From NCBI RefSeq assembly GCF_030658505.1, contig NZ_JAUTXR010000125.1, positions 1 through 64,000 of the forward strand: DNA of 64,000 nt. Reading direction: 5' to 3'. The translations under genes and the position numbers were made by a program. A model generated the notes under the pieces. It did not search any database. It was not told the DNA's origin and worked only from the letters and a program-made list of their open reading frames with translations. Numbering within the stretch: position 1 is the stretch's first letter; each line of letters opens with the position of its first letter. This DNA is from Stenotrophomonas raiganjensis (SeqCode) (GTDB lineage: Bacteria; Pseudomonadota; Gammaproteobacteria; Xanthomonadales; Xanthomonadaceae). Positions 10,495-64,000 of the stretch are shown one piece after another.

Positions 10495-10542
10495 ATGGTG
10501 GGCCGTGAAGGATTCGAACCTTCGACCAAAAGATTAAAAGTC
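10495..10542 (-). repeat. attL: attL: 3' half of tRNA-Lys (48-bp core repeat)
   Basis: The minus strand contains the anticodon loop CTTTTAA, the T-loop GGTTCGAATCC and a terminal CCA, as in bacterial tRNA-Lys(TTT). Left of the anticodon (plus-strand 10543 onward) the expected partner of stem TCTTT is missing, so this is not a complete tRNA. It is the displaced 3' end left at the left junction after integration. It is identical over 48 bp to 54691-54738. Confidence 0.9.
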
Positions 10543-10584
10543 TGACGAAGAACCATTGCGGCACAAGGCTTTCGCCATGATTCC

Positions 10585-10657
10585 CGCTCCGCAACACCAT
10601 CTGAAACGGCGCCCTGAAACCCTTGTGTGGCTTGGCGCCGTTTCTCGTTGCGGAGCG
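10585..10657. promoter_or_regulatory. Integrase arm-type sites, left arm of prophage 1
   Basis: Two copies of TTGCGGAGCG: one on the minus strand at 10585-10594 and one on the plus strand at 10648-10657. The same decamer occurs at 54633 and 54652 next to the integrase gene and, as variants, at 54780 and 54843. Repeats flanking att on both sides are typical of tyrosine-integrase arm sites. The role is inferred. Confidence 0.6.
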
Positions 10658-10667
10658 CCCAAGCACC

Positions 10668-11012
10668 CTACTCCATCCACTCGAACGGCGGCTTCAGGCT
10701 GTCCCTCAGCAGGCGGTTCTCCGCGATCGCGTCCCGGTACTCCCGGATCTTGGCCACGTCCTCGCGCAGCCGGTCCTCGTGCCTGGCCACCCACAGCTCG
10801 GCCCCTGCCCGGCCCTGCTCGTAGCTGCTGCACCAGCGGAACGGACCGCCGGGGCCATGCCGATGCCGGTCCAGTGAGGCGATCCAGATCCCGTCGCCCA
10901 CACGTTCGGCCATGGCCACCACCCACACGCTGTGGCAGGCGATCACGGTGAGCGGGTCATTCGGTAAGCTGGCGGACCTGGTTGTCCAGCGGAAGTCGGC
11001 GGGGAGCGGCAT
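10668..11012 (-). CDS. Prophage border protein of unknown function
   Basis: 114 aa starting MPLPADFRW; not recognised. The C-terminal half is charged and helical (HEDRLREDVAKIREYRDAIAENRLLRDSL), compatible with a short coiled coil. The frame is open upstream to 11063, but I place the start at 11012. The upstream part overlaps a palindrome and a -10 box that are conserved at the matching gene of prophage 2 (start 55381). That makes a leaderless transcript more likely than a longer protein. It is the outermost gene of prophage 1 on this side and probably accessory. Confidence 0.65.
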   Translation of the reverse strand: MPLPADFRWTTRSASLPNDPLTVIACHSVWVVAMAERVGDGIWIASLDRHRHGPGGPFRWCSSYEQGRAGAELWVARHEDRLREDVAKIREYRDAIAENRLLRDSLKPPFEWME

Positions 11013-11019
11013 GGCCGGA

Positions 11020-11050
11020 AGGATACGGCCAGCCGTCGCAGATCCTGCGA
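11020..11050 (-). promoter_or_regulatory. Palindrome plus -10 box, leaderless promoter
   Basis: TCGCAGATCCTGCGA at 11036-11050 is a perfect palindrome with a 3-nt centre. The minus-strand -10-like box TATCCT is at 11020-11025, exactly 7 nt before the ATG at 11012. The palindrome covers the place of a -35 box. The same arrangement, with 18 identical bases around the palindrome, precedes the gene at 55381. Confidence 0.6.
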
Positions 11051-11104
11051 ACGGGTCGGCCACCTACCTGAACGGCCGGGAAGGCGGTTCCGCCGCGACT
11101 TCGA

Positions 11105-11287
11105 TCAGTCCTCGTCGGAGATATGGGGCGCCCCACGGAAGAGCCACACCCCCAGGGCAATGGCTCCCGTGACACATAAACCACCCCCAACGTACTTCAC
11201 CCACTCGCCGTCGAAGGCGCTCAGCGCCATCGCGCTGATGTAGCAAGCAAGGGCGGTATAGCCGGCGGCTTTGGTCTTGGAGTCCAT
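11105..11287 (-). CDS. Small two-helix membrane protein
   Basis: 60 aa with two hydrophobic helices (about residues 8-26 and 31-50) separated by a short polar loop, and an acidic C terminus. The size and topology would suit a holin or antiholin, but the lysis cassette with its own holin is elsewhere (35.5-36.7 kb), so the role is open. TATAGT at 11295-11300 on the minus strand lies 7 nt before the ATG, again a leaderless arrangement. A GTG 9 nt upstream is an alternative start. Confidence 0.65.
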   Translation of the reverse strand: MDSKTKAAGYTALACYISAMALSAFDGEWVKYVGGGLCVTGAIALGVWLFRGAPHISDED

Positions 11288-11322
11288 AGCCGGCACTATA
11301 CCGCCGATGCTGCCCTCTACTG

Positions 11323-14106
11323 CTACAGGGGCAAGAACCCCTTCAGTGCTGCCGCAATAGCTTGATGACCATCCCCGTTGGGGTGGTGGCTGTCGTATGC
11401 CAGCCCCCTTGTATTGGCTTCGCTCCAGGTATTGCCGAACACATCGCGGAGATCAAGGAAGAACCAGGCCCGATCCACTGCCAACTGCTTCAGTGCCGTT
11501 GCGTAGGCGTCGTAAAGGCCGTTTGTCACACCCGAAACGTTCGCCGGGAATCCCACGCATAGGCAACCGTTCGCCTTGGGGTAGAGCTGCTCTATGACCG
11601 TTTCCACCTGGCCCTTGTAAGCGGCAGCCGAAGTGCCAGCCCCTGCGTCATTGATCGTGCAGTAGTAGATGACGAAGTCAGGAGCAATGGTCTTCATCCC
11701 AGGCAGGCTGTTCCAGGGATTCGCTGCAGAGGCCAGGTTGGCAGCTCGCGCGCCCCCCCAACCTCCCTGCAGCAGCACAGGGGTTGCGGTCCCATTGAAT
11801 GCCTCGATGCCCTGCACAAAGGCACTGCCGCTTCCGGTGGGGGTTACCGCGATGTTGTGGCTCCCAGCTGCCACGTTATAGTCTCGGAAGGTCAGGAGCG
11901 CAGAGCCGGACGTATTGATTGTGTCCACCAGGACCCCGTCTATCCGAACCTGCAGAGCGTTGTTCAATCCCGTGAACGTGGCATACCACAGACGGAACTT
12001 GGTCACGCTGCCTACCGGAGAGTACGTGAGCGGGCCGGCCCCGGGAGCCGCGACCATGAAACTGGCGCCGAAGATGCTAGACACCGCAGCGTCGGGAGCC
12101 CAACCACTGCCCAGCGTGATCGCGGGGTTGAAGGTACTGAGGGGTACACCTGCTTCCTTGGTGTTCTGGTCACCGAACCAGCTGGATCGCTGATAGCCAA
12201 ACAGTTCCGCCAACCTCGCTGGGAACGAGGTCTCAGACGCCCCGGTGAGGCCAAGCGTTCCAGCCCCGCTGCCCACACCTTCCACGTTACTGTCACCGAC
12301 GACCATCAGCCTGGCCGGATTGCTTGCGCCTCGTGCCTTCGCTGCGTTCCACAGGTCCAGCGGCCCGGGAATTGGCGGATCTGGGAAGGTCTCCCTGCTC
12401 ACAACCTGCTCACCCCAGACCCTGATTGCACGGAAGTCGCCGGTGATAGGGCCGACTGGGACCTGTTGCCACGTTGCGCAGAAATCGACTGTCCTGAAGA
12501 TTTCGCCAAGGCTGGTCCCGGCCAGGATGTACTTGGTGTTTGCAGCGAGCGTCCGAACCAAGCCAGCCGTGGGGACGGGTGCTTTTTCCACCCATCCATC
12601 GCTCCGATCCCAAACCCGGGTCAGGATCCGGTTGTCTCGGAACACGGCAATCCACCCGTCATGGCTGTACGCCATGTCGACAACCTCAGCGGTCATCGGG
12701 TAGGAGATGATTTCATTCACGCCGGACCGTGGCTTCCCAAGGAACTGGCAGCGGAACACCCCATTCTTGGTTCCCCCGAACGCGGTCACTGCCATGTTGC
12801 CTACGCCGGCCAACGACACAGGGAAATCAATCGCGGTCGGACCTACCAACGTCCAGCTCGCACCTTGGTCAAAGCTGTACGAAAACGTGAAAGTGTTGTT
12901 GTTGCCTCGGTTGTACTGCGCAAGCACCACCTCGTCGCCGAAGATGTCACCGCCTCCGACAAAGCCCTGTGAGAGCACACTGCCGTCGATTGTGTTCAGG
13001 CGGTTGTTCTGCCAGTTGTCCGGCGATCCGCTCACGATGTAGCGCCCGGCCAGCGCAAATTTCGAGTTCGTAGGAAGCTCCTGCACGCCCTTGACGTTGA
13101 ATCCCGGCATGTCGGCGTAGTACGTCGCCTGGAACACGCTTGGGGTGTTTGCACAGGCTATGAGTCCGTTGACCTGCAGCTGCGACACCTCGGTGTTCTC
13201 TGCACCGAACACATTGGCCTGAGCCGTGGGGAACGAGTTTGAATCCTCGGCGATCCACAAAGTGCGCCCGAAGGTCAACGCCCACTTCGTGTCGACGAAG
13301 TCGGCAACGATCACGCTCCCAGCCCACATAGCACTCCGCCCGCGCGAATCGCTCACCAGCAGCGTCAGCTGGAAGGTCGCGTTATGGTTGATGCCGGCAG
13401 CTGCGACGGTGTGGTCCCACTCGAAATCATCGACAAAGAGTGGCTTGTTCTCACGGAAACGGATGCCGTTGCTGCCGATGTTGACCGTCTTCGCAGCTGC
13501 AGGCGCCTCGCCGTTCACCGTGGAATCGTAGACAGCGCCCTTGCTGGCTGACATGACCCGGTTTCCTTCCCTGGTCAGCACGACCTCTCCCGCTTCGTCG
13601 CGGTACTCCAGCAGCACCGACGCGCCAGCGTTTCCCTCTGAAGATGCGCCCTGGCGGACCTTGCACTTTGCCGAAGTCCGCTGACCGGGGTACACGGAAT
13701 AGCGCGAGGTGCTGGAAAGCGGTGAAATGCCACCGTTGTTGCTGTACTCGCCCGACCACTGGCCAACGATTGGCCCATAGGTCGAAACCTTCCAGCCGGC
13801 ACCGCACTCCCAGCCGGTCGGTCCCGACTCGAACCCAGGGTTGGAGATCGGGGCAGCTCCGGCCACATAGGCAGGCCAGGCCAGCACTACCTCCTGCGTG
13901 GCCTGATCCACGTAGAGCTGGTAGCCATCAGGCAGCTTGTCGCCATCGATCTGCCGGACCTGGCAAGCACCGACCGCGTTCTTGATCTGCAGGCGCCCCT
14001 CATAGGCCTGCGAAGGGAAGGCGTTGCCCAACCTCCCGGCCACATACAGGGCCAGCATACCTTCGCGCTGGTCGAGGTCAGGTCGATCGTAGATGCGCGC
14101 GGTCAT
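11323..14106 (-). CDS. Tail fibre/tailspike with C-terminal SGNH hydrolase domain
   Basis: 927 aa. The N-terminal part is beta-rich, with Asp-box-like segments (SFDQGASWTLVG, SHDGWIAVFRD) suggesting a beta-propeller. From about residue 600 an SGNH/GDSL esterase domain begins. Block I is VVGDSNVEG with the catalytic Ser, and block V is DSHHPNGDGH with the Asp and His. Phage SGNH domains usually deacetylate surface polysaccharide, so this protein likely binds and trims LPS or capsule. It overlaps the adaptor fibre gene by one base and forms the distal end of the late operon. Confidence 0.85.
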   Translation of the reverse strand: MTARIYDRPDLDQREGMLALYVAGRLGNAFPSQAYEGRLQIKNAVGACQVRQIDGDKLPDGYQLYVDQATQEVVLAWPAYVAGAAPISNPGFESGPTGWECGAGWKVSTYGPIVGQWSGEYSNNGGISPLSSTSRYSVYPGQRTSAKCKVRQGASSEGNAGASVLLEYRDEAGEVVLTREGNRVMSASKGAVYDSTVNGEAPAAAKTVNIGSNGIRFRENKPLFVDDFEWDHTVAAAGINHNATFQLTLLVSDSRGRSAMWAGSVIVADFVDTKWALTFGRTLWIAEDSNSFPTAQANVFGAENTEVSQLQVNGLIACANTPSVFQATYYADMPGFNVKGVQELPTNSKFALAGRYIVSGSPDNWQNNRLNTIDGSVLSQGFVGGGDIFGDEVVLAQYNRGNNNTFTFSYSFDQGASWTLVGPTAIDFPVSLAGVGNMAVTAFGGTKNGVFRCQFLGKPRSGVNEIISYPMTAEVVDMAYSHDGWIAVFRDNRILTRVWDRSDGWVEKAPVPTAGLVRTLAANTKYILAGTSLGEIFRTVDFCATWQQVPVGPITGDFRAIRVWGEQVVSRETFPDPPIPGPLDLWNAAKARGASNPARLMVVGDSNVEGVGSGAGTLGLTGASETSFPARLAELFGYQRSSWFGDQNTKEAGVPLSTFNPAITLGSGWAPDAAVSSIFGASFMVAAPGAGPLTYSPVGSVTKFRLWYATFTGLNNALQVRIDGVLVDTINTSGSALLTFRDYNVAAGSHNIAVTPTGSGSAFVQGIEAFNGTATPVLLQGGWGGARAANLASAANPWNSLPGMKTIAPDFVIYYCTINDAGAGTSAAAYKGQVETVIEQLYPKANGCLCVGFPANVSGVTNGLYDAYATALKQLAVDRAWFFLDLRDVFGNTWSEANTRGLAYDSHHPNGDGHQAIAAALKGFLPL

Positions 14107-15650
14107 CAGCCTGCCCTCTGGCCGACCAGGTACACGCGCAGTCCCTTGGCGTTCGCGGTGCCCACCTGGTCCACGTCGATAGTGATCTCGTCACCCTTGG
14201 CCAGGAGATTGCCGCCAGCCTCGAACACTGCCGGAATGGCAGCCGTCAGGGTGCTGCGCTCGTTGTTGTCGAAGGTCAGCTTCGTGGAAAGGATGCTGAT
14301 GCCGTTGCGGTTCACGTCGACGGTCAGCACCACACCAGTGGCCTGCGCCGTCGACAGGGTGGCGTAGATGCCCCCGTTGGCCACGGTGTCGAGCAGCAGC
14401 CCGTAGGGCAGGATCAAGCTGTCCTTGCCGGTGCCCGTGGCGATGTTCGTCCCCAGTAGCACGGTACGGTCGACCAGGTCGAAGCACTGCAGGTCGGGCG
14501 TTGAAGACACCCGCAGCAGGTCACCGGCAGCCACCCATGCGTCGGCGTCAGGCGCAAGGCAGGTGCCGCTGATGACACAGCCCGGTGCACGGGTCTTGGC
14601 CTGGAAGCTCGGCGGGATCGTGATCGGGCCTCCGCCTTCCACAACGAGGATCACCTGGCCAGCGCCCACCTGCAGCACCGAGAAGAACTGGCCTTCCTTC
14701 CAGTCCGCACTGCCACCCGTGTTCGCCCGGATGGTCAGAGTGATCGGCGTGGCCGAGTTGGCGAGGATCAGGGTGTTGTGCATGTCGCCGGCCAGCATGG
14801 TGCTGCCGGTGACGCTCACGATCCGTGGCGCAACCGTGTAGACCGGGGGTTGGCCGATCCACGGGCGGGCGTAGCCGCGCAGGGTCGTGAAGCCCCGCAC
14901 GCCGTCGCCGAGCGGCGGATTGAAGCGAATGGCCGGCGGCGCCCCTTCAGTGCCCGGGACGATCATGAACTCGCCGACGCCGTTGGCGTCGACCGGCCTG
15001 GACACCTTGTAATTGCCCGCGCCCGCGGTGATCTCGGCGGCGGTGTCATAGAACAGCGGATCCAGAACGTCTGCGCCTGTCAGGGGGAAGTCGGTCACCT
15101 CTCCGTCACCGGTGAAAGTCCACAGCTTGGGCGTAACACCGACCGTCCCACCGCCGTTCTGGATGCCCTCGATCATTGCCAGCAGCGTCCGCAGATTGAC
15201 TGCGTCTCCGTCCAGGCTTGCGTCGCCCACGTTGATGATGCGGCTGCCCTTCGCATCCCACACGAATTCGCCGGTGTCAGGGTCCTGCACCAGCTGCATG
15301 CCGCTATCCATCAGCTGCTGCAGTTGCATCACACGGTAGTCGAAGGCGTCTTCGTGGATCTCCGGGAGGAAAGCACCCTGGTTGGTAATGTCGGCTGGCT
15401 GATCGAGCGGCACCGTACGCAGGATCAAGATGTCCAGGTTCAAGGCAGGCGCAGTGTTGAAGGTGATCGTGCTGGCGTTCGCCCGCAGCCCGGTCACGGT
15501 GTACTGAGCTGGCGGCACAAGCTGATAGACCGGGTGCGTGCCAGTGAACACCTGGATGTGGCTCGACAGGAACGCCCTCGGCCCGTTGAACGCGGTGGCG
15601 ACGCCGTTCCCCACGTAGGTTTTGCGGCGGTCATTGGCGGAAATGGTCAT
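14106..15650 (-). CDS. Tail fibre with T7 gp17-like N-terminal adaptor
   Basis: 514 aa. The first ~150 residues match the podovirus tail-fibre anchor, including RRKTYVGNGVATAFNGP and the helical stretch AFDYRVMQLQQLMDSG. This domain attaches the fibre to the tail tube. The rest is beta-structured and ends in a jelly-roll-like region. A hairpin terminator lies between this gene and the giant virion protein upstream, so it may also be transcribed separately. The adjacent SGNH protein may be attached to this fibre, which would give a branched receptor-binding apparatus. Confidence 0.85.
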   Translation of the reverse strand: MTISANDRRKTYVGNGVATAFNGPRAFLSSHIQVFTGTHPVYQLVPPAQYTVTGLRANASTITFNTAPALNLDILILRTVPLDQPADITNQGAFLPEIHEDAFDYRVMQLQQLMDSGMQLVQDPDTGEFVWDAKGSRIINVGDASLDGDAVNLRTLLAMIEGIQNGGGTVGVTPKLWTFTGDGEVTDFPLTGADVLDPLFYDTAAEITAGAGNYKVSRPVDANGVGEFMIVPGTEGAPPAIRFNPPLGDGVRGFTTLRGYARPWIGQPPVYTVAPRIVSVTGSTMLAGDMHNTLILANSATPITLTIRANTGGSADWKEGQFFSVLQVGAGQVILVVEGGGPITIPPSFQAKTRAPGCVISGTCLAPDADAWVAAGDLLRVSSTPDLQCFDLVDRTVLLGTNIATGTGKDSLILPYGLLLDTVANGGIYATLSTAQATGVVLTVDVNRNGISILSTKLTFDNNERSTLTAAIPAVFEAGGNLLAKGDEITIDVDQVGTANAKGLRVYLVGQRAG

Positions 15651-15662
15651 GGGTGCATCGGC

Positions 15663-15695
15663 TCCAGAAAGAAGAAGCCCCGCATCTGCGGGGCT
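15663..15695 (-). terminator. Rho-independent terminator (minus strand)
   Basis: Stem AGCCCCGC / GCGGGGCT at 15676-15695 with a 4-nt loop, followed on the minus strand by the pyrimidine run CTTCTTCTTTCTGG. The same run follows the hairpin at 28451-28483, so both terminators derive from one template. It would limit readthrough from the virion genes into the fibres. Confidence 0.75.
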
Positions 15696-15707
15696 GGGCG
15701 TGGTCGA

Positions 15708-18700
15708 TTACTGCTGGTCCTTGGGTCGGCGGTACATGAGGTATGCGGCCGCCTCCGCGGGGTTGTCCGGGGTGTACTGGCCGGTACCGACGTCGTAGAG
15801 GTATTCGCCGGTGGTCAGCATCTGATTGCTGGGAATGCCGGTCAGCGGGCCGGCAGCGCGCACGCCGGTCTTGATCAGCTTCTCGGTGTCCGGATCCTCG
15901 TCGTCCTCGATCCAGTCCCTGCCTTCATCCCATGCGGCTTTGCCGAACTTTGCCAAGGCAATGCCCGCATCGGCGATGGGATTCGGGCGCCCCGTGCTGG
16001 GCTTGCCCTCGATCGAGGCATCGATCGCGCCAGCCACGTCTCGTAGAACTGGGAACGTCTGGAACGGGAACAGCAAGGTCTTCCGGGCGAGCCAAGCGCT
16101 CCAGTCATCCCATCCCTTCTCGTCGTCATCGCCACCGTCGGGGCCACGCATCATCAGCAGTTCGAACACCGCGTTGGACAACACGCCAGCCGACAGCCAG
16201 GTGCCCAGCGCTCGGGCCGGGGACTGCACGCGTCCCAGGTACAGGCCGCGCAGACCCGATTCCTGCAGCCGGTTGTTCATGATGATCATCGGGCCAATGA
16301 ACATGCGCACCCACTTGTATTTGGGATCTCGCTCTGCGGCACTGAGATCCTTCGGGGCGCCTGCCTGCTGCGTAGCGCGGATCGACTTGTCCGCTAGGCG
16401 TACAGCCTCGTCGACGCCGGCGCCCTGCGCCTGCGCCTGCTGGTAGCGGCCCAACCAGATGGCTCGCTCGGCCAGCGGCACCGTCCAGCGGTGGACCTCC
16501 ATGGCCATCTTCATGGCCGCCGCGCGGATGCCGCGCTTTCCCGACAGCTTGCCCAGCACCACCTGATAGGACGAATCCAGCGAGTTGGAGCGTTCCTCCA
16601 TGAAGGGCGACAGCGAGTGGATCATCTCCGTCATCTTGCCCGGGCTGCGGTAGTACGCCGCATAGCCGGTGGCGAGGTACTTCGTGTCAACGCGCGCCGC
16701 CGCCTGGATCGGCGCCACAACTGTGTTGGCAAATACCAGCGGCAGTCTGAAGCCCAGCGCGGCTACAGCCGTGTTGGTCAGAACCGCGTCGCCGATCTTC
16801 TCGAACACACTGGAACCTGGCTCAGACACTGAAGCGCCCCGCACGGCATTCCCAACGCTGCCATGCAGCGCTTGGTACGCTCCAACCGACAGCCGCTGCT
16901 GGATCAGGTTCTTCAGCTCCTGATCTTCCAACACCCGCAGCGCCTGCTTCACGTAGCCACGGTGCGAGACGTCGGTGATCACGTCATTCAAGTGCCGCGA
17001 CAGCACGCGGTGGTAGTCCAACAGCATCGGCGCTGCGTACTCGGTGCGCTCTTTCGTGTGGCCCTTGCTGGTCATGGCACGGCTGAAGGTGCCGCCCATG
17101 ATCTGTTCCTCCGCTGCGCGCGCTTGCTTGACGCCGCCGGCTCCCGCCCGGGGGTCGTACACCGCCGGGTAGTAGCCGCCGCGCAGGCTGACCATCGAGC
17201 CATCGGCCGCGGTGAAGATCAGCGGCATCGGCTCGACCTGCTCGGGTGCAACGCCCGACAGCCGGCGCTGCTGCTCCACGATGTCCGGCCACAGGCTGTT
17301 CACCGCGTCCCAGATGCCCTGCACCATCTGTGCGTCCGCCGGCGTGAGGTGGCCCAGCATTTCCGCGATGTTCTGCGGAGTGACCTGGACCACCTCGGCG
17401 TTCTTGCCGATGAACCCGCCGCGCATCAGCTTGTCGCGGTTGCCGGCATTGCCCATGTTCAGTGCCACGGCCACGATCGTGTTTTTCGACAGAGCGCGCC
17501 CCAGGCTCGGCACGTAGACCAGTCGGTTCAGGTCCGCCCGCTGTGCCGGGGTCAGGGCCTTCATGGTCTGCTCCAGCATGCCGCCGACGCGGTTGCGCAG
17601 CTCAATTCGCTGCTGCTGCGCTGCCTCTGCCTGGTTCCACAGGAAGTCGTGCCACGGGCCGGTCTCGCCACCGTCCAGCCACTCGACCACGGTCTCCGGG
17701 CGCAGTACCCAGTCCATCAGGCCGGTGTAGGTCGCGCCCACCTTCTGCATCGCGGTCAGGTCCGCATCGGAGAGCGGCAGCGGCTTTCCTTCAGCGATCG
17801 CACCACGAATGGCGCCGGCCAGCTCGGCCTGTGCGCTCTCCCAGTCACGCTGGTCCTTGTTGCTCAGCAGCTTGTTCTTCAGTTTGGCCAGACGCGCGAT
17901 GTTGGTCACCGCGTCGTGCAGCTCGCGGAACTCGGTAATCGGCAGGTCGGCGTAGTTCGTTACGCTTTCCGCCTCGACCCGGGCCAGCAGCGCGTCGCTT
18001 ACGGCGGTCAGATCGTCCTCGGCCTGGCGAGCTTCGACCCACTGCCGCAGGCTTTGGCGGCGCGCAACGGCCCGGCCGGACACGTCGCGGAACTCGTAGG
18101 TATCGGCGATGGTGTCCATCGCTTCCAGGTAGTCGGCGCCGGCCTTGCCCAGCCGCTCGCGGGCCTGCGGCGTCATCTGCCGACGGATGTAGCCGACCTT
18201 CGACTCGACCTCCTGCTGCACCGCACGGGCCTCAGCGAACAGCACAGCGTTCAGGGCCTGCTGCCGCTTCGTCTGCAGCGCGTCGGCATACTTGCCCGCG
18301 GCCGCCGCCTGCGCCGCCGCGCGCGCAGCCTTGCGCTCAGCGACCAGGTACTCATTGGGCCGGATCTGGCGCGCAGTCTTCTCGGCCAGCACGGCCTGCG
18401 CCACGGCCTTCAACTCGCGTCGGTTCGGCCGCGGCTCCTTGGCCAGGTCGGCCAGCACGCCCAGCTCGCGCTCCAGCAGCTGGATCTTGCGACTGCCATG
18501 CACGGCGTCCAACGCTCGCTGCGGCAGCGTGCCGTCGGTCATGGGCTCGCCGTGCCGGGCCTGCATGCGCGCATCTGCCTCCGCGCTCACACCCGCCAGG
18601 GTCTGCCGTACCGTCCACAGTCCCTGCACCAGCTCGTCGGCGGAGCTGAAGCCCAGCAGGGTGGCCGCCTCTTCGGGATGGGTGCCGCCCTTGCGGGCGT

Positions 18701-54631: not shown

Positions 54632-54632
54632 A

Positions 54633-54738: not shown

Positions 54739-54779
54739 AAGAGAACAATTCTTTCATTTCAAAGGCTTAGGCGGAAATC

Positions 54780-54852: not shown

Positions 54853-54871
54853 GGTTCTAGGCCCGAAAGGG

Positions 54872-55381: not shown

Positions 55382-55388
55382 GCCCGGG

Positions 55389-55419: not shown

Positions 55420-55616
55420 ACACGGCCAGCACCTGGCTGAATCGTTGCCTGCGCGGCGCTGCTCAGGCGCCACCCGGGCAGAGCGGCCGGTGGCCCCGGG
55501 TCCGGCACGACCAGAGTGCGCCGGCCTGCCGCCGGCCGCCATCGGGCAACCGCGCGACACCGGGTCAGCATGCCCCTACACGCGCCAGCCACGGGCGGCA
55601 GGGTTACCCTCCGGCC

Positions 55617-56282: not shown

Positions 56283-56371
56283 GCACCTGATTTAACTACC
56301 TCAACCCCATCCCGGGCAACCAATATCCTGCAAAACCAGCAATCGAGCAAACATAGCGACACTCAAAATAG

Positions 56372-56965
56372 CTAACTAATAACTGGGACCCCGCTAATAT
56401 GAGGCGGCAAGCCTTCTGCGTAGCGCCGTGCGGACGAGGCGATGTTCCGTGCAAATATTTCGTTACCTTCCATGCTCTTCAACCATGCCCTTGCACCCTC
56501 CAGAACTTCCGAGCAGAACATCGGAAGATCTAATATCAGACTATTGTCCGACATTGAGTTATGGATCGTGACACTACTTGTTCGCGGCTCGATGAACATT
56601 ATCCTATCAAACGGGCTCGACTTTCTGATAGTTGAACTTTGATGAAGCAAAGAACAGCGAAACTGGTAGCAAGCCGCCCCATCCAATGGCCCAAGTATCT
56701 TAGGCCCCATCCTCTCCCGCACATCCAAGGGAAGACGCGCAAGAACTTGGTCACCCATTCGAGGACGCACCCAAGCATCGAACCAAGCAACATACTTATC
56801 CTGAGTCGCCCAAAAATTCTCGGACTCGAGCGCTCCTGCCGCGTCAGGAACAGTGAGGGTGGCGTACAAAGAAAGAAAGTAAAACTTGTGCTCTAGAGAA
56901 TTCTCAATCTGGTCCAGTAGCTCATTCACAACAAACCATCCATGTGTTTTTTGAATGCTGCTCAC
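56372..56965 (-). CDS. HEPN-like accessory protein of prophage 2
   Basis: 197 aa from a GTG at 56965; markedly lower GC than neighbours. YQFRCSLLHQSS contains R103-x4-H108, an Rx4H motif as in HEPN ribonucleases. Preceding helices (LSLYATLTVPDAAGAL, KYVAWFDAWV) parallel those of the protein at 36947-37510. Position at the prophage border, on its own, suggests a moron with a defence or conversion role. No family is recognised by name; the HEPN idea is inference. Confidence 0.6.
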   Translation of the reverse strand: MSSIQKTHGWFVVNELLDQIENSLEHKFYFLSLYATLTVPDAAGALESENFWATQDKYVAWFDAWVRPRMGDQVLARLPLDVRERMGPKILGPLDGAACYQFRCSLLHQSSTIRKSSPFDRIMFIEPRTSSVTIHNSMSDNSLILDLPMFCSEVLEGARAWLKSMEGNEIFARNIASSARRYAEGLPPHISGVPVIS

Positions 56966-57015
56966 ACTGTAGTCGATAGACTAGCGTCGAACAATGCGGC
57001 CAGCTAGCTTGCAGT

Positions 57016-59640
57016 TCACTCAAACGACTCTGGCAGATCGATTCTTATCCTCTCAAACATCTTCGCATTGCCAGCTACGTTGGGGTGGACGTTGTCTCCG
57101 ACCTGCATGCTCGGTGCCCAGGCCGCACCGTCGTTTGCATCAGAAAGCGCCAGGTCGAACCGAACCGGAGGCAGCAGGTCAGCACCGAAGTACCCGGCAA
57201 GAATGTCATCGTTGTACTGGGCACGCAGCGCGGCCGCCGTTGGGAGAGGCGGCAAACAGGCCAGGGATATTCTCGACGTGCGACCGCGCAACTGGCTCAG
57301 CAATGCCTCGACGTTCGCCCTCCATGCTGCCCTGGTAATGCCACCAAGAGCATCGTTGGTGCCGATCAAGATCACCACCACGGTGTTCCTATCACACAGG
57401 CCCAACGCTTCGCTTCCGGCCGCCCGAAGGTGGTCAGAGCGCTGCCCACCACGGGCGATGATTGCGGTATCGATCGCGCCGGCTTCGACCCGCTCATCCT
57501 CCAGCATGTAGGACCAGGTCTTGCCATAGTTGGCGGCGCCGATCTGCGAGCCCTCGGTGATGCTGTCGCCCATCAACAGCACCCGGGCAGCACGCGCGGT
57601 CGGGAACGGGTAGTCAGCAACCATCCGGACGCGGTCAACCTTCACGCCGCCGGCGGTGGTGCCGGGGAAGACCACGCACGGCGTGCCCCACGGCCTACCA
57701 CTGTTCGCGCCAGTGCCGGCCCCATAGTCCAGCACAAGCTGCACATTCTGGCCGCTGACCAAGTTGGTCAAGGTTATGTAGGTGGCAAACCGCACACGTT
57801 TCACATCGAGACGAACTCGAGAGCCGGTCAAGGGCCAAGGAATCGAAATCTCGGCGACAGCTGCGGGCGGCGTTGTGGTGCCATCCCAGCGATAGACCCG
57901 CAGCTGCCCGGTCACCCCGTCTACGATCGCAGCAGGCGTGTCCAGCACGGTGCCGCTGGTCTCGCGGATCCAGCCGAGACCCCAAACCTGGTCGGCAGCA
58001 ACGATGTCCGCTACTGCCGACAGGGTGCGCCGGCTCAGCTGCGACTTTCCGTAGGACGCGGGGTAACTCTTGCTGGCCCAAGTGGATGATACCTGGCTCA
58101 CCAGTGCCCCATCAGCCAGCGTCGAGCCATTGAGCACCCAGCCTGCGGCCGAGCCATTGAAGCGCTCGTCGATAAGCGCGGGGGCCACGACAGGATCGAG
58201 TACATCTGCGATGGTTTTCGACAGAACCTGGAACTCCACGCGCATCGCCACGTTGATCGGCGACACCTGCCAGTCCTGGACCTGACCCAGCCCGTTCGCC
58301 TGCGTGAATCCGGAGGTCGAGAGGCCCGGGCCGGCGCCCGCTGACCCGTCGTACCTGACGTTATTGCCACTGATCGATCGCATGTACACGTGGCCGCCGG
58401 CAGGAACGAATGTCTGTGGGAAGCTCTCGCCCGCCAGCCACGTATTGGTTCCGTTTCCGAACTCTACCTGATGACGCGCGATCACCACCTTGTTCGCATC
58501 CTGCGCCTCAATGATGGCTTGCCCGGCGCCGGCGAAGACCGCTTGTACTTGGCTCATGTACCCACCCGGCGAGGGCTGCGCGATGCCGTATCCGTTCGCA
58601 ACGTTGGCATTGCCGGTGTAGGTGGAAGAGACGGATCCCAACGGCACGATACTGGCGTCCACATCCTCGAGCCCCAAATAGCGGGATGCAAGGGTTGCAT
58701 TTGCTTCGGCACTTGATGCCGCAGTCTCCGCGCGCTCGACACGTTCTGCCAACGGCGGCGAGTCTTGCCCTTGATAGTCAACGCGAAGCGATATTCGAAT
58801 TGCCGGACCAATGACAGGAGAGCCCTGAATGTCTCCAATGTTCACCGAGTCACCTACCAGCCAGCGGGCCGAGCCCGGAGGGGTTCCACCTGGCTCGTCA
58901 AAGCAAATGTTCACGCCTGAAATCGGCTTGTACACGATGTAGGAGCCGGCCTCTGCCGTGTACTCAGGCGAGATGGTCACAACGCCTGCGGAGGTGATCG
59001 ATACGGGCAAGATGGCGGCAGTGTACGTGCCGGCGCCATTCGCGCGAGGCGACAGTACATGGAACTGCCCAGCAGCCGGCCCCAAGAAGCGCGCGGAGAT
59101 TCGTAGCAACAGCGCGCGGAATGGAAGCGTCACGGCATTGCCGAACATGGACGCAGCTACGGCGGGGCCACCGGCGGCGGTGGTGGAGCCGAGCACTGCA
59201 CTTTCAAGCTCTCCCGTGTCACCAAGCAAATACCCCAGCGCAGCCACGGAATCGCGACTGGCCTTCTCGGTGATCGTATCCGCGCGTAGCCATTGCCAGC
59301 CGGTGCCGCTCCAACGGTACTGTCCACTGTTGCTCACGGACTGACCTGAGACAGGATCTACATGCGTGCCCGGATCGCTGATCACGTCTGCAGCAAAGCC
59401 CACGCCACGGCTGGTATCAGCTTGCAGTGCGGCCCACGATGGATAGCGCTTAAGCCCGTTGGCGCCGACAAACTGATCGAACTCCGTGAGGATCCCGTTC
59501 CAGCTACGTCGAGACCGGCCAAGCCGATCATTCCAGGTGGGCCCAGCCCCGTTGATGCCGGCATCAAGGTTCTCGGCGTTGTCGTACAGATCAAGGGGTG
59601 AACTCGACCCCACCGGGTTGCCGGTGCTGTATCTGGTCAT
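57016..59640 (-). CDS. Tail fibre with C-terminal SGNH/GDSL hydrolase domain
   Basis: 874 aa. N-terminal fibre region (DLYDNAENLDAGING is a common start of such fibres) and beta-rich repeats. The last ~220 residues are an SGNH esterase: block I LLMGDSITEG, block III GTNDALGG and block V GDNVHPNVAG with Asp-His. It likely de-esterifies the host O-antigen or capsule. It is the last late gene on this side, like the SGNH fibre of prophage 1, although sequences differ. Confidence 0.86.
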   Translation of the reverse strand: MTRYSTGNPVGSSSPLDLYDNAENLDAGINGAGPTWNDRLGRSRRSWNGILTEFDQFVGANGLKRYPSWAALQADTSRGVGFAADVISDPGTHVDPVSGQSVSNSGQYRWSGTGWQWLRADTITEKASRDSVAALGYLLGDTGELESAVLGSTTAAGGPAVAASMFGNAVTLPFRALLLRISARFLGPAAGQFHVLSPRANGAGTYTAAILPVSITSAGVVTISPEYTAEAGSYIVYKPISGVNICFDEPGGTPPGSARWLVGDSVNIGDIQGSPVIGPAIRISLRVDYQGQDSPPLAERVERAETAASSAEANATLASRYLGLEDVDASIVPLGSVSSTYTGNANVANGYGIAQPSPGGYMSQVQAVFAGAGQAIIEAQDANKVVIARHQVEFGNGTNTWLAGESFPQTFVPAGGHVYMRSISGNNVRYDGSAGAGPGLSTSGFTQANGLGQVQDWQVSPINVAMRVEFQVLSKTIADVLDPVVAPALIDERFNGSAAGWVLNGSTLADGALVSQVSSTWASKSYPASYGKSQLSRRTLSAVADIVAADQVWGLGWIRETSGTVLDTPAAIVDGVTGQLRVYRWDGTTTPPAAVAEISIPWPLTGSRVRLDVKRVRFATYITLTNLVSGQNVQLVLDYGAGTGANSGRPWGTPCVVFPGTTAGGVKVDRVRMVADYPFPTARAARVLLMGDSITEGSQIGAANYGKTWSYMLEDERVEAGAIDTAIIARGGQRSDHLRAAGSEALGLCDRNTVVVILIGTNDALGGITRAAWRANVEALLSQLRGRTSRISLACLPPLPTAAALRAQYNDDILAGYFGADLLPPVRFDLALSDANDGAAWAPSMQVGDNVHPNVAGNAKMFERIRIDLPESFE

Positions 59641-59661
59641 CTTGGTGCGTCTCCAGTGGTG

Positions 59662-62600
59662 CTACGGCGCGGTCGCGTCGTCGTATTGGTAGAAGGCGGG
59701 GTCGTACTGCAGGGCGGTCAGCTCCACCGAGCCGTCTTCGCCGGGCGTGAGTTCGGCCAGCACTGCGTCGTACCCAGCGCGCGTGCTGTCGCAGAAGATC
59801 AGCTCGGGCGGGTCAATCGTTGGGTCGTCCATGATCCAGGTGTTGAACGCGTGCTCGCCGGGCAGTGCCGAGGCGGCGATAGTCAGACGATGGTCGTCCA
59901 CACGGGTGGGCACCATCACGCCGGACAGCGTTCCGTCCTGAAATCGGACCAGGCACCGCGGCGCTGGCAGGCTCCAGTCCAGGTACTCGCCCACCTCGAT
60001 CAGAAGCCGGGTTCCATCCAGCCGCGCCGACTCAATCATGGTGCTGGTGGTGCTCGAACCCGGAATGTCATCGAACAGCTTCACCCGGTCGCCGTACTGG
60101 TAGACCAGGCCCATCATCTCGGTCTTGGTCTTATAGGTCAGGCGCTGGCCTTGGTGCTTCATCAGCCGGCGCATGCCGATCCGGTACGCGCGATCGCGCG
60201 TGCCGACACCCTGCAGCTCGTAGGTCTCCACCTTCCACGGCTCGGTCACACCCGGTAGTCGGCACTCCACCGTCTCGGCCGCCCACGTGACCTCGTCGAC
60301 GTAGGTCACGTCCACGCCGTCGTAGTCGTCCGGGCCCGGCGAAATGAACGACGTGCTGAGCGGCTCAAGCTGGCGCTGCGGCGAGATCCCGCCTCGCCAC
60401 CCCTTCACCCCTTCGCGGCCTGCCGAACACATCGAATCGATCAGCAGGAAGTAACCCATGCCCGCCTGCGCCGCCATCTGCAGCATGTCCAGTGCGCTGG
60501 TGCCGGACTTCTCCGCGCTGAAGTCGAAGAATTCCCCTCGTGGCGTCCAGTAGGTGTCTTCCAGATGCTGCAGCGTGTCCGTATCGATCTGGTCCGCCGG
60601 CAGGCCAAGGGAGCGCATGACGTGGATCATGGCGCCGCTGATGCTGCGTGCAGTGCCTTGGTCGTAGAGCCGTGTAGCCTCTACATTGAACCGGCGGTCG
60701 GTCTGCGCTGCCAGCTTCGTCCCGGTGGTAACCGTCAGGCCGATGGTCGTCAGGTCGTCGTAGCGTGTCGGCCGCTGCGACAGGCGCGCGCGCAGGCCCT
60801 GCCAGTAGCAGGCATCCCGTGCCGAATTGCCCCCGCGCTCTGTCACCCGCCTGATCCGCACCTCAACCTGCCCAGGTGCGCCGAGGGTGATGCGCTCGGT
60901 GAAGCCCACCGCATCCTCGGAGTATCCGGTGTACGTGTGGGTCCGAACCGTCCAGGGCGCGCCCGAGCCATACACCCGATATCCAACGCGGATGCTGACC
61001 GTAAACGTGCGCTTGTTGCCCTTGCTGGTGTACCAGATCAGGCCGCTGGGGAAGTTGAAGTCGTATTCAAACGCATCGGTGGTTTCGCCGTTCGGGCACA
61101 CCAGGAACGGTCCCAACCACTCCTCGCCCTCCTGGAACCCGGTGGCGCTGTAGTCAGTGGCCGTCCGGCTGGTCCAGCCCGGCCAGCTCGTATCGACCAC
61201 GCCAGCCTCTGTAAGCCGTTCCACCGCCAAGGTGAGCCCGGACACGGCCGCAATCCGATAGTCACTTTGGCCGCGCGACATTGCCAGAGACACCACACCA
61301 GGCGGCAGGCCTCCAAAAGCAGTTCCGGTCGGGCCGTCATAGGCCAACGTCACACGGGGCTGCGTCGCAGGTGTTCCACCGCTCGTGGCCACACCCACCG
61401 TGGACGTTGGGCTGCTACCGAAGACAGACGCCGGCAGTCCGCTGTAGGTGATGCTCCCGCCAGCAAACGGGCTGGCCGCCTCAGCAATCGTCACCACACC
61501 GCCGGACTGGGTCGCCACCAAGCCGCTATCCACCAACTGGTCGTTGATGGCAGTCAGCAGCACGCCCAAAGTGATGTAGTTGGCCACCAGCGCCACGCTG
61601 TAGGTGGTTCCCCGCCAGCTGATCCCGAAGGTGACCGGAGAACCGCTGAAGTCGAAGTTGCTCGCAGCGGCCGATCCCGTCACACGGGCAGCGCTGCCAC
61701 CAACACCGGGCACTGCGGGCGAGCCAGGGACGTAGCTGGCCACGAACAACGCGTAATCGGCTCCGTTGTAGGTCAGCAGAACCGGCATGCCCACGTAGGG
61801 TGCCAATTCCGCCACAGCACTGCCGGCGATGATCGAGTAAAGGCCGCTGGTGGTCGCGGTGAAGGAAGCCGCAACCTTGAGCGTGAGCACGGCGCCGACA
61901 ACCCAGCTGCTGGGCACGGAGCTGGTCGGCCGCTCGTTACCGTTCGCGTCGGTGACTGTCGCGTTGTTCAGGGTGATCACATTCCCCGATACCGTCACCG
62001 AGTCTGCGTTGATGCCCGTAGACACGTCTGCCGTGTCGCTCAGGTCCAGGCCGGCTGTGCCAGAGGCGGTAGCGCCCACCTCGGTGGAGTTCACCCAGTT
62101 CTCGGAGCGCACGTCGCCACCGACATCGGCGCCCGGTGGGTAGATGGTCATCTGCACGTCACTGCCGAACGAGCTGATGGGCGTGTTCCCCAGCCGGGCC
62201 GAACCCACCGGGATGATGTGCCGCCCCTTGCCCACGCACACGAACATGTGGGTTCGATAGGATTTCTCCCCCACGAAGCGGGACACCGGCTGCACCAGGT
62301 AGTCGGCCCAAACGCGGCACCGCCCCAGAACCTCGCGCACGGGGCTTCCGAGCCGCGCAGTGTTCGCCCGCGCCGTGTCGAGGCTGAGGCTATCTCCCTG
62401 CCCGTTTCGACTGCCGGGCAGGTTGTTGGCCATGTAGATGGCATACGCAGCCACCACCGCAACCACGACCCAGTAGATCACTGCGGCGATGCCCTCGTAA
62501 TGAGGGACCGGGTAGATGCGCACGTCGCTGCCGTGGTCGATCCAGGTGGTTGCCCACGCACCTGGCGCAACCGGCGCGCCGTCCACCTCCAGCTCGATTG

Positions 62601-62724
62601 GCTGCTCACCCTCTCCGGTGTAACCACGCACGTTCGCCCGCAGCCATCCATCCACCGTCATCCGGCCATGCTGGTGGGTTTCCAGCGCTTCACCCGGCAT
62701 GCGGGAAGGAAACACGCGGATCAC
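59662..62724 (-). CDS. J-like tail tip/host specificity protein
   Basis: 1020 aa. N-terminal small beta domain, then a hydrophobic segment (AAVIYWVVVAVVAAYAIYM, about 80-100), then RANTARLGSPVREVLGRCRVWADYLVQPV, a stretch typical of siphophage tip proteins. Repeated beta regions with Gly/Thr/Ser-rich loops (61-62 kb) and a C-terminal domain ending with DPAFYQYDDA. It caps the tail and leads DNA entry. It is downstream of the peptidase gene by a 4-base overlap. Confidence 0.83.
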   Translation of the reverse strand: MIRVFPSRMPGEALETHQHGRMTVDGWLRANVRGYTGEGEQPIELEVDGAPVAPGAWATTWIDHGSDVRIYPVPHYEGIAAVIYWVVVAVVAAYAIYMANNLPGSRNGQGDSLSLDTARANTARLGSPVREVLGRCRVWADYLVQPVSRFVGEKSYRTHMFVCVGKGRHIIPVGSARLGNTPISSFGSDVQMTIYPPGADVGGDVRSENWVNSTEVGATASGTAGLDLSDTADVSTGINADSVTVSGNVITLNNATVTDANGNERPTSSVPSSWVVGAVLTLKVAASFTATTSGLYSIIAGSAVAELAPYVGMPVLLTYNGADYALFVASYVPGSPAVPGVGGSAARVTGSAAASNFDFSGSPVTFGISWRGTTYSVALVANYITLGVLLTAINDQLVDSGLVATQSGGVVTIAEAASPFAGGSITYSGLPASVFGSSPTSTVGVATSGGTPATQPRVTLAYDGPTGTAFGGLPPGVVSLAMSRGQSDYRIAAVSGLTLAVERLTEAGVVDTSWPGWTSRTATDYSATGFQEGEEWLGPFLVCPNGETTDAFEYDFNFPSGLIWYTSKGNKRTFTVSIRVGYRVYGSGAPWTVRTHTYTGYSEDAVGFTERITLGAPGQVEVRIRRVTERGGNSARDACYWQGLRARLSQRPTRYDDLTTIGLTVTTGTKLAAQTDRRFNVEATRLYDQGTARSISGAMIHVMRSLGLPADQIDTDTLQHLEDTYWTPRGEFFDFSAEKSGTSALDMLQMAAQAGMGYFLLIDSMCSAGREGVKGWRGGISPQRQLEPLSTSFISPGPDDYDGVDVTYVDEVTWAAETVECRLPGVTEPWKVETYELQGVGTRDRAYRIGMRRLMKHQGQRLTYKTKTEMMGLVYQYGDRVKLFDDIPGSSTTSTMIESARLDGTRLLIEVGEYLDWSLPAPRCLVRFQDGTLSGVMVPTRVDDHRLTIAASALPGEHAFNTWIMDDPTIDPPELIFCDSTRAGYDAVLAELTPGEDGSVELTALQYDPAFYQYDDATAP

Positions 62725-63098
62725 GCGTAGTACTCCACACGATTGAAGCGGCGCTCAAAGCGCGCCACAGGCAGGACGGTCACGTTGCGGCCGTCGTTAC
62801 ATTCGAGCGTGCACATGCGGCCATCTACCTCTACCAGCACGGCAACGTGGGTCACCATGCTGCCCTCGTAGCAGAACGCCACGGCACCCTCCACCAGGTC
62901 GCTGCCGGCGTGCTGCAGAACCGCCTGCTGTGCCAGCTCGGGCAGATCGTCACGGGTAGCCCCAGGGTGCTCATCCCACGGCGGCAACCCAAGGTCCCGC
63001 CGCACCTCATTGACCACGCCATAGCAGTCCAGTTCGGGGAACACGCGGCCGCCACTGACCCAGACAACGTCCAGGTATTTTTCAAGGTCGATCGTCAT
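62721..63098 (-). CDS. NlpC/P60-like tail assembly peptidase
   Basis: 125 aa from MTIDLEKYL. C25 in LDCYGVVNEVRRD and H84 in THVAVLVE form the Cys-His pair of the NlpC/P60-type domain, which is the lambda K-like tail assembly protein in this position. Unlike K, the N-terminal Mov34 domain is missing, so it is a stand-alone peptidase. ATGA overlaps on both sides. Confidence 0.8.
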   Translation of the reverse strand: MTIDLEKYLDVVWVSGGRVFPELDCYGVVNEVRRDLGLPPWDEHPGATRDDLPELAQQAVLQHAGSDLVEGAVAFCYEGSMVTHVAVLVEVDGRMCTLECNDGRNVTVLPVARFERRFNRVEYYA

Positions 63099-63577
63099 GA
63101 GATGTAGCGCAGTCCGGGGTGCTTGGAGAGATTGAAGCGATCGCGCGGCCAGGCCGTGTCGAGGATGTTCATGAAGCCGGCCGTGATCTGGACCTCTGTG
63201 GCCGACCACTGGCCGCCCTTGATGACCATCGAGAGCGGACGCTTGATGGGTGCCAGCAGATCACTGCTCAGGTAGACCCGCAGGGTTACCGTCATCTCCT
63301 GCCGCGCGGCCAGCGCGGCACGGATCTTGGTGCTCACCACGCCATCAATGTTGGTCAGCGCGAAGCGCAGATCCTGTACGCCGTCGGCATTGCGAGCCGG
63401 CTTGGCCACGTCCATGCCGCAGGCCTTGAAGGTCACCGTCTGGCCCGTCTCCAGAACCGCAGTCAGGTCCTCCCAACCCTTGGTCAGGTAGTGGGTTTCA
63501 CCACCGACGGTGATGGCCAGCGTGTCGTGCTCGATCTCGCTGCCACCGGAAGCATATAGCCGTTCAAGGATGCTCAT
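63095..63577 (-). CDS. DUF1833-like tail assembly protein
   Basis: 160 aa from MSILERLYASGGSEIEHDTL. ITVGGETHYLTKGWEDLTA and the C-terminal FMNILDTAWPRDRFNLSKHPGL fit the DUF1833 family of siphophage tail proteins between the tape measure and tip genes. It overlaps both neighbours by 4 bases, as is normal in tail operons. Confidence 0.75.
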   Translation of the reverse strand: MSILERLYASGGSEIEHDTLAITVGGETHYLTKGWEDLTAVLETGQTVTFKACGMDVAKPARNADGVQDLRFALTNIDGVVSTKIRAALAARQEMTVTLRVYLSSDLLAPIKRPLSMVIKGGQWSATEVQITAGFMNILDTAWPRDRFNLSKHPGLRYIS

Positions 63578-64000
63578 GGCTGAGGCCACTCCCTGTTTGC
63601 GGCAAGGTCCACGACATTGGCCTGCAGGAAGCCTTCCGGGTACTCAGACCAACCATCAGCCAGCAGCGGCCGGAGGTACAGCTCCAGCTGCGCGGTGAAC
63701 ATCCACAGATTGCCGTTGGTCAACGTTGGACCGTCGTAAATGTCGGTGAACCGCGCCTTGTAGTAGTCCATGCCCAGCGGGCTGCGAAGGCGGCAGGCAA
63801 ACCAGGACACGCCATCGAATAGCTTCTCCTGGAACCACTTCTCGAACAGAGCAGCCTGCTGATCATTCAGCAGCCATCGCACCTCGGTCTGGCTCGGGGT
63901 GGCGGTGTAGGCCCGGCGTGGAAGGGACCGTCCGCTAACGAAGGTGGACCGCGTCTGCGGTGACACGTGGCGCAGCCCATAGCCCTCGCGCAGCGGTTCG
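63574..64000 (-). CDS. Tail protein, 5' end beyond the window (partial)
   Basis: About 142 aa visible; the frame stays open to the right edge (EPLREGYGLRH precedes a possible GTG at 63966), so the real start lies beyond 64000. RSLPRRAYTATPSQTEVRWL and FQEKLFDGVSWF resemble small beta tail proteins (M-like) upstream of DUF1833 genes. Annotated as partial. Confidence 0.7.
   Translation of the reverse strand, partial: EPLREGYGLRHVSPQTRSTFVSGRSLPRRAYTATPSQTEVRWLLNDQQAALFEKWFQEKLFDGVSWFACRLRSPLGMDYYKARFTDIYDGPTLTNGNLWMFTAQLELYLRPLLADGWSEYPEGFLQANVVDLAANREWPQP

Follow-up and report, generated by a model that had tools for sequence, protein, structure and literature searches.

The tandem of two prophages at one tRNA is a known arrangement, of which the locus described here is a clear case. 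With SGI1, elements are reportedly brought into a tandem array at one site by site-specific recombination; that site is not the tRNA considered here, and SGI1 is a genomic island, whereas the present locus holds two unrelated phages. As far as the available part of the source goes (PMC9934374), a single attB of Mycobacterium abscessus is likewise occupied by a tandem of two different phages, prophiT36-2a and prophiT36-2b, with their own integrases and an internal attR/attL junction; the attP of each was detected by PCR, and the authors discuss the use of a resident prophage's attR.

The window, that is the whole stretch of DNA analysed, comprises bases 1-64000 of a 105,148-base contig (C140). 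This contig almost certainly carries two unrelated temperate phages, P1 and P2, head to tail at a single tRNA-Lys(TTT) of a Stenotrophomonas chromosome, with an att that came to be shared through exchange of an integrase-attP module. It contains three cores, one intact tRNA and one integrase adjoining each right-hand core (Table 1); the two prophages are different, lie in the same orientation, share the internal core, and both keep phage gene sets.

Regarding the core, the 48-mer at att1 and att2 is 100% identical and is the sole direct repeat of at least 30 bp that find_repeats reported for the window (seed 20); on the minus strand it corresponds to positions 30-76 of tRNA-Lys(TTT), numbered from the intact gene, plus one base past the CCA. 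Chance is no explanation for an exact 48-bp repeat of a tRNA half. The preliminary description had taken both repeats for 3' halves lacking a 5' half, and the core match and mismatch counts bear this out: the 29-nt 5' half mismatches the 10495 site at 18 positions and the 54691 site at 20, and nowhere in the window does it match with fewer than 11 mismatches. ARAGORN reported no tRNA-Lys in the 64-kb window, which, together with these mismatches, rules out a complete tRNA at either core (10.5 and 54.7 kb); the same program placed one tRNA-Met at 36767-36845. The intact gene had been predicted beyond the window, and to the right of 64 kb the contig indeed holds a full tRNA-Lys(TTT), with an exact third copy of the core as its 48-bp 3' end and an integrase beside it; the copy at 54691 is then the internal junction, as had been proposed.

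Table 1. Features of the locus. Positions are those of the window; those preceded by C140 are contig positions.
Feature	Position	Strand	Remark
Native intrinsic terminator of tRNA-Lys, 13-pair stem, T-rich tail	10442..10470	-	now 84.6 kb from tRNA
att1, displaced tRNA-Lys 3' half, P1 left end (chromosome/P1 junction)	10495..10542	-	left flank abuts tRNA in empty-site relatives
P1, podovirus-type (CP2-like head and tail genes)	10543..54690	.	44 kb
P1 left-arm site TTGCGGAGCG, inverted	10585..10594	-	TGCGGA match begins at core +46
P1 left-arm site TTGCGGAGCG, direct	10648..10657	+	TGCGGA match begins at core +107
P1 tail fibre, C-terminal GDSL lipase domain	11323..14106	-	927 aa
P1 1997-aa protein, phrog_9880 (unknown function)	15708..21701	-	LPD22 domain
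P1 major head protein (phrog_212)	29029..30021	-	
P1 head-tail adaptor / portal (phrog_332)	31146..32852	-	
P1 terminase large subunit (phrog_2)	33340..34839	-	
P1 DnaB-like helicase	40412..41884	-	
P1 repressor-like protein (Peptidase_S24)	44124..44813	+	37% identical to P2 counterpart
P1 RecT-family recombinase	48226..49188	+	
P1 YqaJ-family exonuclease	49185..49964	+	
P1 396-aa gene common to P2 (C140:91340-92452)	51082..52272	+	DNA 92% over 400 bp
Int1, P1 tyrosine integrase	53510..54631	+	373 aa; 59 bp from att2
P1 right-arm site TTGCGGAGCG, first	54633..54642	+	
P1 right-arm site TTGCGGAGCG, second	54652..54661	+	19 bp after first
att2, internal junction (P1 right arm, core, P2 left arm)	54691..54738	-	
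P2 left part, siphovirus-type	54739..64000	.	runs on to C140:95090; whole P2 40 kb
P2 left-arm partner (TGCGGAA), inverted orientation	core +45		
P2 left-arm site TTGCGGAA	54843..54850	+	TGCGGA match begins at core +106
SRAP-domain protein, P2 left edge	55617..56282	+	
P2 tail-fibre-like protein, GDSL lipase domain	57016..59640	-	874 aa
P2 tail protein, phrog_469 and central tail fiber J-like	59662..62724	-	
Int2, P2 tyrosine integrase	C140:93966-95018	+	ends about 70 bp before intact tRNA-Lys
P2 right-arm sites	C140:95021 and 95040		
Terminator-like hairpin in P2 right arm	C140:95079-95058	-	
Core copy 3	C140:95091-95138		exact copy, part of intact tRNA-Lys(TTT)
Intact tRNA-Lys(TTT)	C140:95092-95167	-	

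The repeat at both prophage ends is therefore the 3' part of a tRNA that is intact at one end, and in relatives the site is uninterrupted. Both outer flanks of the 84.6-kb block formed by P1 and P2 match the empty-site flanks of relatives, and they abut the tRNA in five of the six relatives without a displaced copy (L009-L013); in the sixth (L026) the left-flank match ends 606 bp short. Empty-site junctions were read directly in three relatives. The rest of the contig and these genomes agree with the earlier reading, in which the tandem occupies one tRNA-Lys on the minus strand and its left end carries the displaced 3' half. They also bear on an assembly chimera, in which real prophages from different cells or places would have been joined at the 48-bp repeat: the assembly is a draft of 192 contigs, but the genome has one intact tRNA-Lys(TTT) only, to which both chromosomal flanks belong; a repeat of 48-52 bp is presumably below usual read lengths; and the internal junction combines the P1 right arm and the P2 left arm, each in real attP geometry. 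Such an artefact is extremely improbable.

As for the phage genes, family matches agree with the podovirus-type P1 and siphovirus-type P2 of the preliminary description. P1 has a CP2-type head and tail module; its 1997-aa protein is probably a large internal virion protein, judging by its place beside the CP2-like tail genes, and no tape-measure family was matched among the 10 P1 proteins scanned, a part of the P1 ORFs. P2 has an HK97-type terminase, portal, protease, major head protein and tape measure (phrog_9, phrog_12, phrog_1684, phrog_10 and phrog_2854, respectively). On its sequence, P2 also carries a probable diversity-generating retroelement (DGR): the template and variable repeats (110 nt; variable repeat at contig positions 89398-89507) are 85% identical with 16 of 17 mismatches at template A, and the reverse transcriptase is over the Pfam cut-off (67.3 vs 29.6); the Avd matches are under their curated cut-offs (21.9 vs 40; 26.6 vs 80). 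PADLOC, applied to 10 P1 and P2 proteins in search of prophage-borne defence genes, matched the reverse transcriptase only, and the template/variable repeats assign it to the DGR and not to defence. P1 and P2 (57 and 62 called ORFs) have just four protein pairs in common, the integrase among them, which rules out a duplication or two copies of one phage. The differing S24 repressors (37% identity) may let both prophages live in one cell.

Both integrases match PF00589 (70.2 and 80.4 bits; cut-off 27.1) and are 56% identical. Four arm sites are laid out alike in the two attPs, whose arm words differ, the predicted positions being -57, -38, +46 and +107 in P1, -70, -51, +45 and +106 in P2, and -57, -38, +46 and +107 in a circular attP (L030). 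The word TTGCGGAGCG has four occurrences in the contig, all at the two ends of P1; TTGCGGA has 14, seven of them at the three junctions. The differing words (TTGCGGAGCG for Int1, TTGCGGAA for Int2) may keep the two systems apart; the P2 left-arm words (TTGCGGAACG, ATGCGGAACG) are unlike its right-arm words (TTGCGGAAAA), and therefore arm specificity is not clean.

The claim that unrelated phages share one att stands as far as the phage bodies are concerned; the integrases, by contrast, are related. Phage bodies were compared for P1, P2 and 11 of 16 IMG/VR records, as partial sequences (G440, G441, G446, G449 and G452 left out); among these 11 records, the Int1-type integrase occurs on four body types and the Int2-type on two, one body type having both. 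Close relatives of each integrase, some of them near-identical, thus sit on unrelated bodies, and because of this and of the body found with either type, the best account of the common att is that unrelated phages have exchanged a related integrase-attP module. In a tree of 35 of the 38 gathered integrases (L037, L045 and L062 were dropped for an in-frame stop; L063, at 33%, was not gathered), the tRNA-Lys users are not grouped together; therefore "one guild" spans at least two integrase lineages.

Regarding the free forms, the circular metagenome record G442 of IMG/VR, a P1 relative with a 123-bp end overlap and one att copy, carries the predicted P1-type attP: P1 right arm, 48/48 core and P1 left arm (87% over 532 bp); its integrase is 94% identical to Int1. 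A solo prophage with an Int1-type integrase also occupies this tRNA in G444. A proven free attP of P2 was not found: in the candidate L051, the right arm and core are of the Int2 type, but the left side is different, without the TGCGGA arm words, and no circular overlap was found in it. Each prophage keeps both its own arm sets, so it would be able to excise alone, and the two could also leave jointly as one 84.6-kb circle.

In the mechanism that we propose, each phage would bring a tyrosine integrase of one family beside an attP holding a 48-bp copy of the tRNA 3' half; because of this copy, integration would restore a complete tRNA at one end of the insert and leave an extra 3' half at the opposite end. 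A further phage of the guild could then integrate at the restored tRNA or, in principle, at the extra half. The preferred target of lambda-type integrases is normally attB, and the usual rule is that the youngest element adjoins the tRNA; this rule favours P1 first. In the reverse order, P2 would have taken the tRNA first and P1 would then have used the displaced half (attL) at the left end of P2. Both orders end in the same map. Since the three cores are identical over 48 bp, the displaced half could serve as a core just as well as the tRNA, and the order is unreadable from core polymorphism; however, the P2 attL has the P2 left arm beside the core, and with the rule just given the reverse order is possible but doubtful. 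The probable course is that P1 integrated first and that the tRNA thus rebuilt was the target of P2.

The tandem also separates the tRNA from its native terminator (fold z -4.16; none of 200 shuffled sequences folded as well), a similar hairpin being present at the same position in all three empty-site relatives tested. The P2 right arm has a terminator-like hairpin; the P1 arm has none within 90 bp. A tentative and rather speculative proposal is that in this genus one tRNA-Lys serves as the common dock for phages that are otherwise unrelated and exchange an integrase-attP cassette, in which Int1-type arms would remove the terminator and Int2-type arms replace it 20 nt past the tRNA; a P2-type phage on a P1-type phage would then restore termination and could be favoured outermost. 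If true, phages differ in giving back the terminator of the tRNA they occupy. In the literature, surveyed by title and abstract, nothing was recognised as describing this locus or a tRNA terminator carried by a phage.

Concerning the occupancy of the site, 88 of 91 Stenotrophomonas genomes have one intact copy of tRNA-Lys(TTT), and a displaced core is present in at least 14 of the 91, two of these having more than one. Core and tRNA are 2-9 kb apart in G006, G022, G033, G036, G488 and G491, the last with a small occupant that keeps an Int2-type integrase (97%). Such small occupants favour the view that the tandem is a fixed, decaying scar and not two live prophages; against it, the head, tail, packaging, repressor and integrase genes are open frames in P1 and P2, and a circular form with intact attP is on record for the P1 relative, so a scar is very unlikely. 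PADLOC matched no defence cargo among 10 proteins of the smaller occupants; Pfam gave PIN_8, Big_13 repeats, an IS transposase core, NmrA, an integrase and a weak Sel1 for the same set, and nothing for four of the 10. An Int2-family match (E <= 1e-60) was found in 15 of the 91 genomes, with two matches in the source genome and in G478; the latter is not a second tandem, its two matches being 2.5 Mb apart. Int1 relatives (E <= 1e-70) occur in seven of 395 genomes of the family, in a survey whose first look scored five candidates a genome, and only the source genome has two.

In conclusion, all three att sites, the empty site and the attP of a relative can be read, so that stacking rules at one tRNA become testable; same core, different arm words and different repressors are the candidate rules. 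The data suggest that the dock is a property of the exchangeable integrase-attP cassette, not of the phage lineage. As for known phages, we take Xanthomonas citri phage CP2 to be a podovirus, its record saying Caudoviricetes only. The head and tail genes of P1 match those of CP2 (NC_020205) in kind and in order, the common set being the major head protein, head-tail adaptor, internal virion proteins, endolysin, a large hypothetical protein and the tail fibre, whereas the alignment at the DNA level covers only 3% of the P1 query stretch, at 77%. Burkholderia phage KL3 comes first among phage records for both integrases and is distant (42% and 40% identity). The Haemophilus phages HP1, HP2 and S2 likewise have an attP with a tRNA-Lys copy (annotated in the S2 record; 92% over 76 bp), in a different host group and with a longer tRNA homology than here. 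Finally, in the available part of its description, the prophiT36-2a/2b att lies in a repressor gene, with integration-dependent immunity (PMC9934374), whereas here a tRNA half would be rebuilt each time.

The 48-bp repeat is present as three exact copies on contig C140, which is 105,148 bases long and whose first 64,000 bases make up the window: a repeat search of the window gave att1 (the chromosome/P1 junction) and att2 (the junction between the podovirus-type prophage P1 and the siphovirus-type prophage P2), and a search of the whole genome (4.7 Mb in 192 contigs) added a third, which is part of an intact tRNA-Lys(TTT). The repeat spans tRNA position 30, two bases ahead of the anticodon loop, through CCA; att1 and att2 both lack a tRNA 5' half. 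These results bear out the preliminary description, which had recognized two tRNA-Lys 3' halves devoid of a 5' half and had placed the intact gene to the right of the window. Two further matches in the genome, at 85-87%, are tRNA-Lys(CTT) genes located elsewhere. The core-to-core distances are 44,196 and 40,400 bases, 84,596 in all.

Coordinates of the features at the tRNA-Lys locus (L007 is a fetched stretch of C140)
Feature	Position	Strand	Remark
Native tRNA-Lys terminator	window 10470-10442	minus	13-pair stem and T tail
att1	window 10495-10542		chromosome/P1 junction
P1	window 10543-54690		podovirus-type
P1 tail fibre	window 11323-14106		C-terminal GDSL lipase/acylhydrolase domain
tRNA-Met(CAT)	window 36767-36845	minus	carried by P1
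Int1	window 53510-54631	plus	tyrosine integrase
Weak terminator-like site	window 54564-54548		inside int1
att2	window 54691-54738		P1/P2 junction
P2	window 54739 to C140:95090		siphovirus-type
SRAP gene	window 55617-56282		P2 left edge
P2 tail fibre	window 57016-59640		C-terminal GDSL lipase/acylhydrolase domain
Diversity-generating retroelement	C140:88955-91343 (L007:8956-11344)		P2, right of the window
Variable repeat	L007:9399-9508		110 nt
Template repeat	L007:10042-10151		110 nt
Int2	C140:93966-95018	plus	tyrosine integrase
tRNA-Lys(TTT)	C140:95092-95167	minus	intact; third exact core

As for the unoccupied site, 18 same-genus stretches were fetched, and six of them (L009-L013 and L026) come from genomes with no displaced copy, i.e., a 3' half parted from its gene, among the matches listed. 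In five of these six, the sequence flanking att1 on the left and that flanking the tRNA on the right meet exactly at the tRNA, a junction confirmed by direct reading of L010, L011, and L013; in L026, the left-flank match ends 606 bases short of it. Since the flanks abut the tRNA in relatives, the whole 84.6 kb parts the tRNA from the sequence that naturally lies downstream of it. Of 91 Stenotrophomonas genomes, 88 have a single intact tRNA-Lys(TTT), and the other three, two of them less than 90% complete, have no match. Displaced copies occur in at least 9 genomes among 37 (first search), in 8 of 91 (exact-boundary patterns), and in at least 14 of 91 when the two are united; both searches undercount, because the first covered 37 of the 91 genomes and the patterns demand an exact boundary. 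The source genome (two) and G025 (three, spread over two contigs, with no linkage between these implied) have more than one copy. The G025 halves lie near two contig ends (L017 on G025:C3 and L018 on G025:C2), and one interval encodes a protein of 1309 aa in which bacterial Ig-like domains are repeated.

Solo prophages of both integrase types exist at an intact tRNA-Lys, which ARAGORN detected in L029, L032, L033, L035, L036, L052, and L053. The IMG/VR record 3300013817_000001 (G442; 44,760 bases) has ends overlapping by 123 bp, so it closes to a circle; its single att copy is ordered as Int1 (94%), P1 right arm, core (48/48), and P1 left arm (87% over 532 bp). Judged from its sequence, this junction is the attP of a P1 relative, and the short record L028 has the same arm-core-arm join with two core mismatches. 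A second tRNA-Lys allele, with a paired T-stem change, occurs in hosts and phage cores alike (L028, L029, L033-L036, and L053), and the same allele was found at both ends in the four prophages compared (G444, G445, G447, and G454).

Regarding the phage bodies, the P1 genes for major head protein, head-tail adaptor, terminase, tail proteins, and endolysin are arranged as in Xanthomonas phage CP2, and no tape measure was found among the 10 P1 proteins scanned; P1 also encodes a DnaB-like helicase, RecT, a YqaJ exonuclease, an S24 repressor-like protein, and a tail fibre with a GDSL lipase domain. P2 has an HK97-type set of terminase, portal, protease, and major head protein, an 865-aa tape measure, a J-like tail protein, a GDSL-lipase tail fibre, an S24 repressor-like protein, and the integrase; the fibre ends the tail module in both prophages. 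Comparison of 57 P1 with 62 P2 called ORFs (E <= 1e-3; one P2 ORF double-counted at a piece edge) gave only four matching pairs: the integrases (56%), the repressors (37%), a small gene (37%), and a 396/370-aa gene (63%). At the DNA level the last of these is 92% identical over 400 bp, a sign of recent exchange. The P2 retroelement consists of an Lcl_C-domain target gene, distant from the tail genes, an Avd-like gene, and a reverse transcriptase, whose called start encloses the template; 16 of the 17 mismatches between the repeats fall on template A.

Each integrase gene is directly trailed by two TTGCGGA words 19 bp apart, and across the core stand two more, one inverted and one direct; words of this type are putative arm-binding sites of the integrases. 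Counted from the core, they lie at -57, -38, +46, and +107 in P1, all four as TTGCGGAGCG, and at -70, -51, +45, and +106 in P2, with TTGCGGAAAA on the right and T/ATGCGGAACG on the left; L030 and L034 have the P1 positions. On the contig, TTGCGGAGCG occurs only four times, always at the ends of P1, and the three junctions account for 7 of its 14 TTGCGGA words. The right-arm pair of the relatives, spaced by 19 or 20, tracks the integrase clade and not the tRNA: GCG follows TTGCGGA in Int1-type loci and in the tRNA-Gly(CCC) and one tRNA-Leu(TAA) user, and AAA follows it in all four Int2-type loci reaching the core. L043 and L062 depart from this with ACCG words and L035 with single words, and the pair was absent from L039, L047, L055, and L056. 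The distance from integrase stop to arm sites is 2-3 bases in P1 and P2 and ~0.4-1.1 kb in the Int relatives L032, L036, L041, L042, L050, L052, and L061.

In a tree built from 35 integrases, the 13 rows of the Int1 clade (support 100/98) group with a Pseudoxanthomonas integrase for tRNA-Lys and the clade that uses tRNA-Gly(CCC) (99/98), and Int2 with six relatives forms a distinct clade (100/100); the two being separate, tRNA-Lys users are not one clade, and target choice would thus have switched more than once or been regained. The deep part of the tree is unsure owing to long branches (L047, L056, and L057). Parts of 11 of 16 IMG/VR records were compared with P1 and P2 (ORFs >= 100 aa), giving five body types, a number from partial records that unseen halves could lower: A (P1, G442, G448), D (G444), and E (G443) have Int1-type integrases, C (P2, G451, G453, and via these G450) Int2-type ones, and B both (G439, G445, G447, Int1-type; G454, Int2-type). 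The G439 integrase is 99% identical to Int1, the G439 body has one ORF in common with P1, and the G439 left end carries the P1 left gene (91%) followed by the P2 left SRAP gene (88%). These patterns are evidence that the dock may travel with an exchanged integrase-attP cassette. Besides this one in G439, the SRAP (SOS-response-associated peptidase) gene of P2 has a relative in L034.

The tandem prophages part the native terminator from tRNA-Lys; its fold has a z of -4.16, equalled by none of 200 shuffles, and it is retained in the three empty sites tested. A 9-pair hairpin with ATTTTTGTTTTT lies just beyond the tRNA in the P2 right arm, but its z is only -1.65, equalled by 11 of 200 shuffles, and shuffled regions yield 0.6 sites of this kind each in the scan. 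Such hairpins are present in 5/5 Int2-type arms, with stems altered yet still paired, and in 1/10 Int1-type arms (L033), counts that are not independent because several arms are near-copies; the recurrence among Int2-type arms supports a terminator-like reading. No terminator hairpin was found within 90 bp in the P1 arm, and a looser scan gave one weak site. A terminator difference between the two arm types is suggested as a lead.

In conclusion, arrangements of this kind are known: in M. abscessus, prophages that differ in type likewise stand in tandem at a single attB, and PCR revealed the attP of each (PMC9934374). What is new here is the member, the site, the layout of shared core and different arms, the evidence for an exchanged dock cassette, and, as a lead, the terminator difference.
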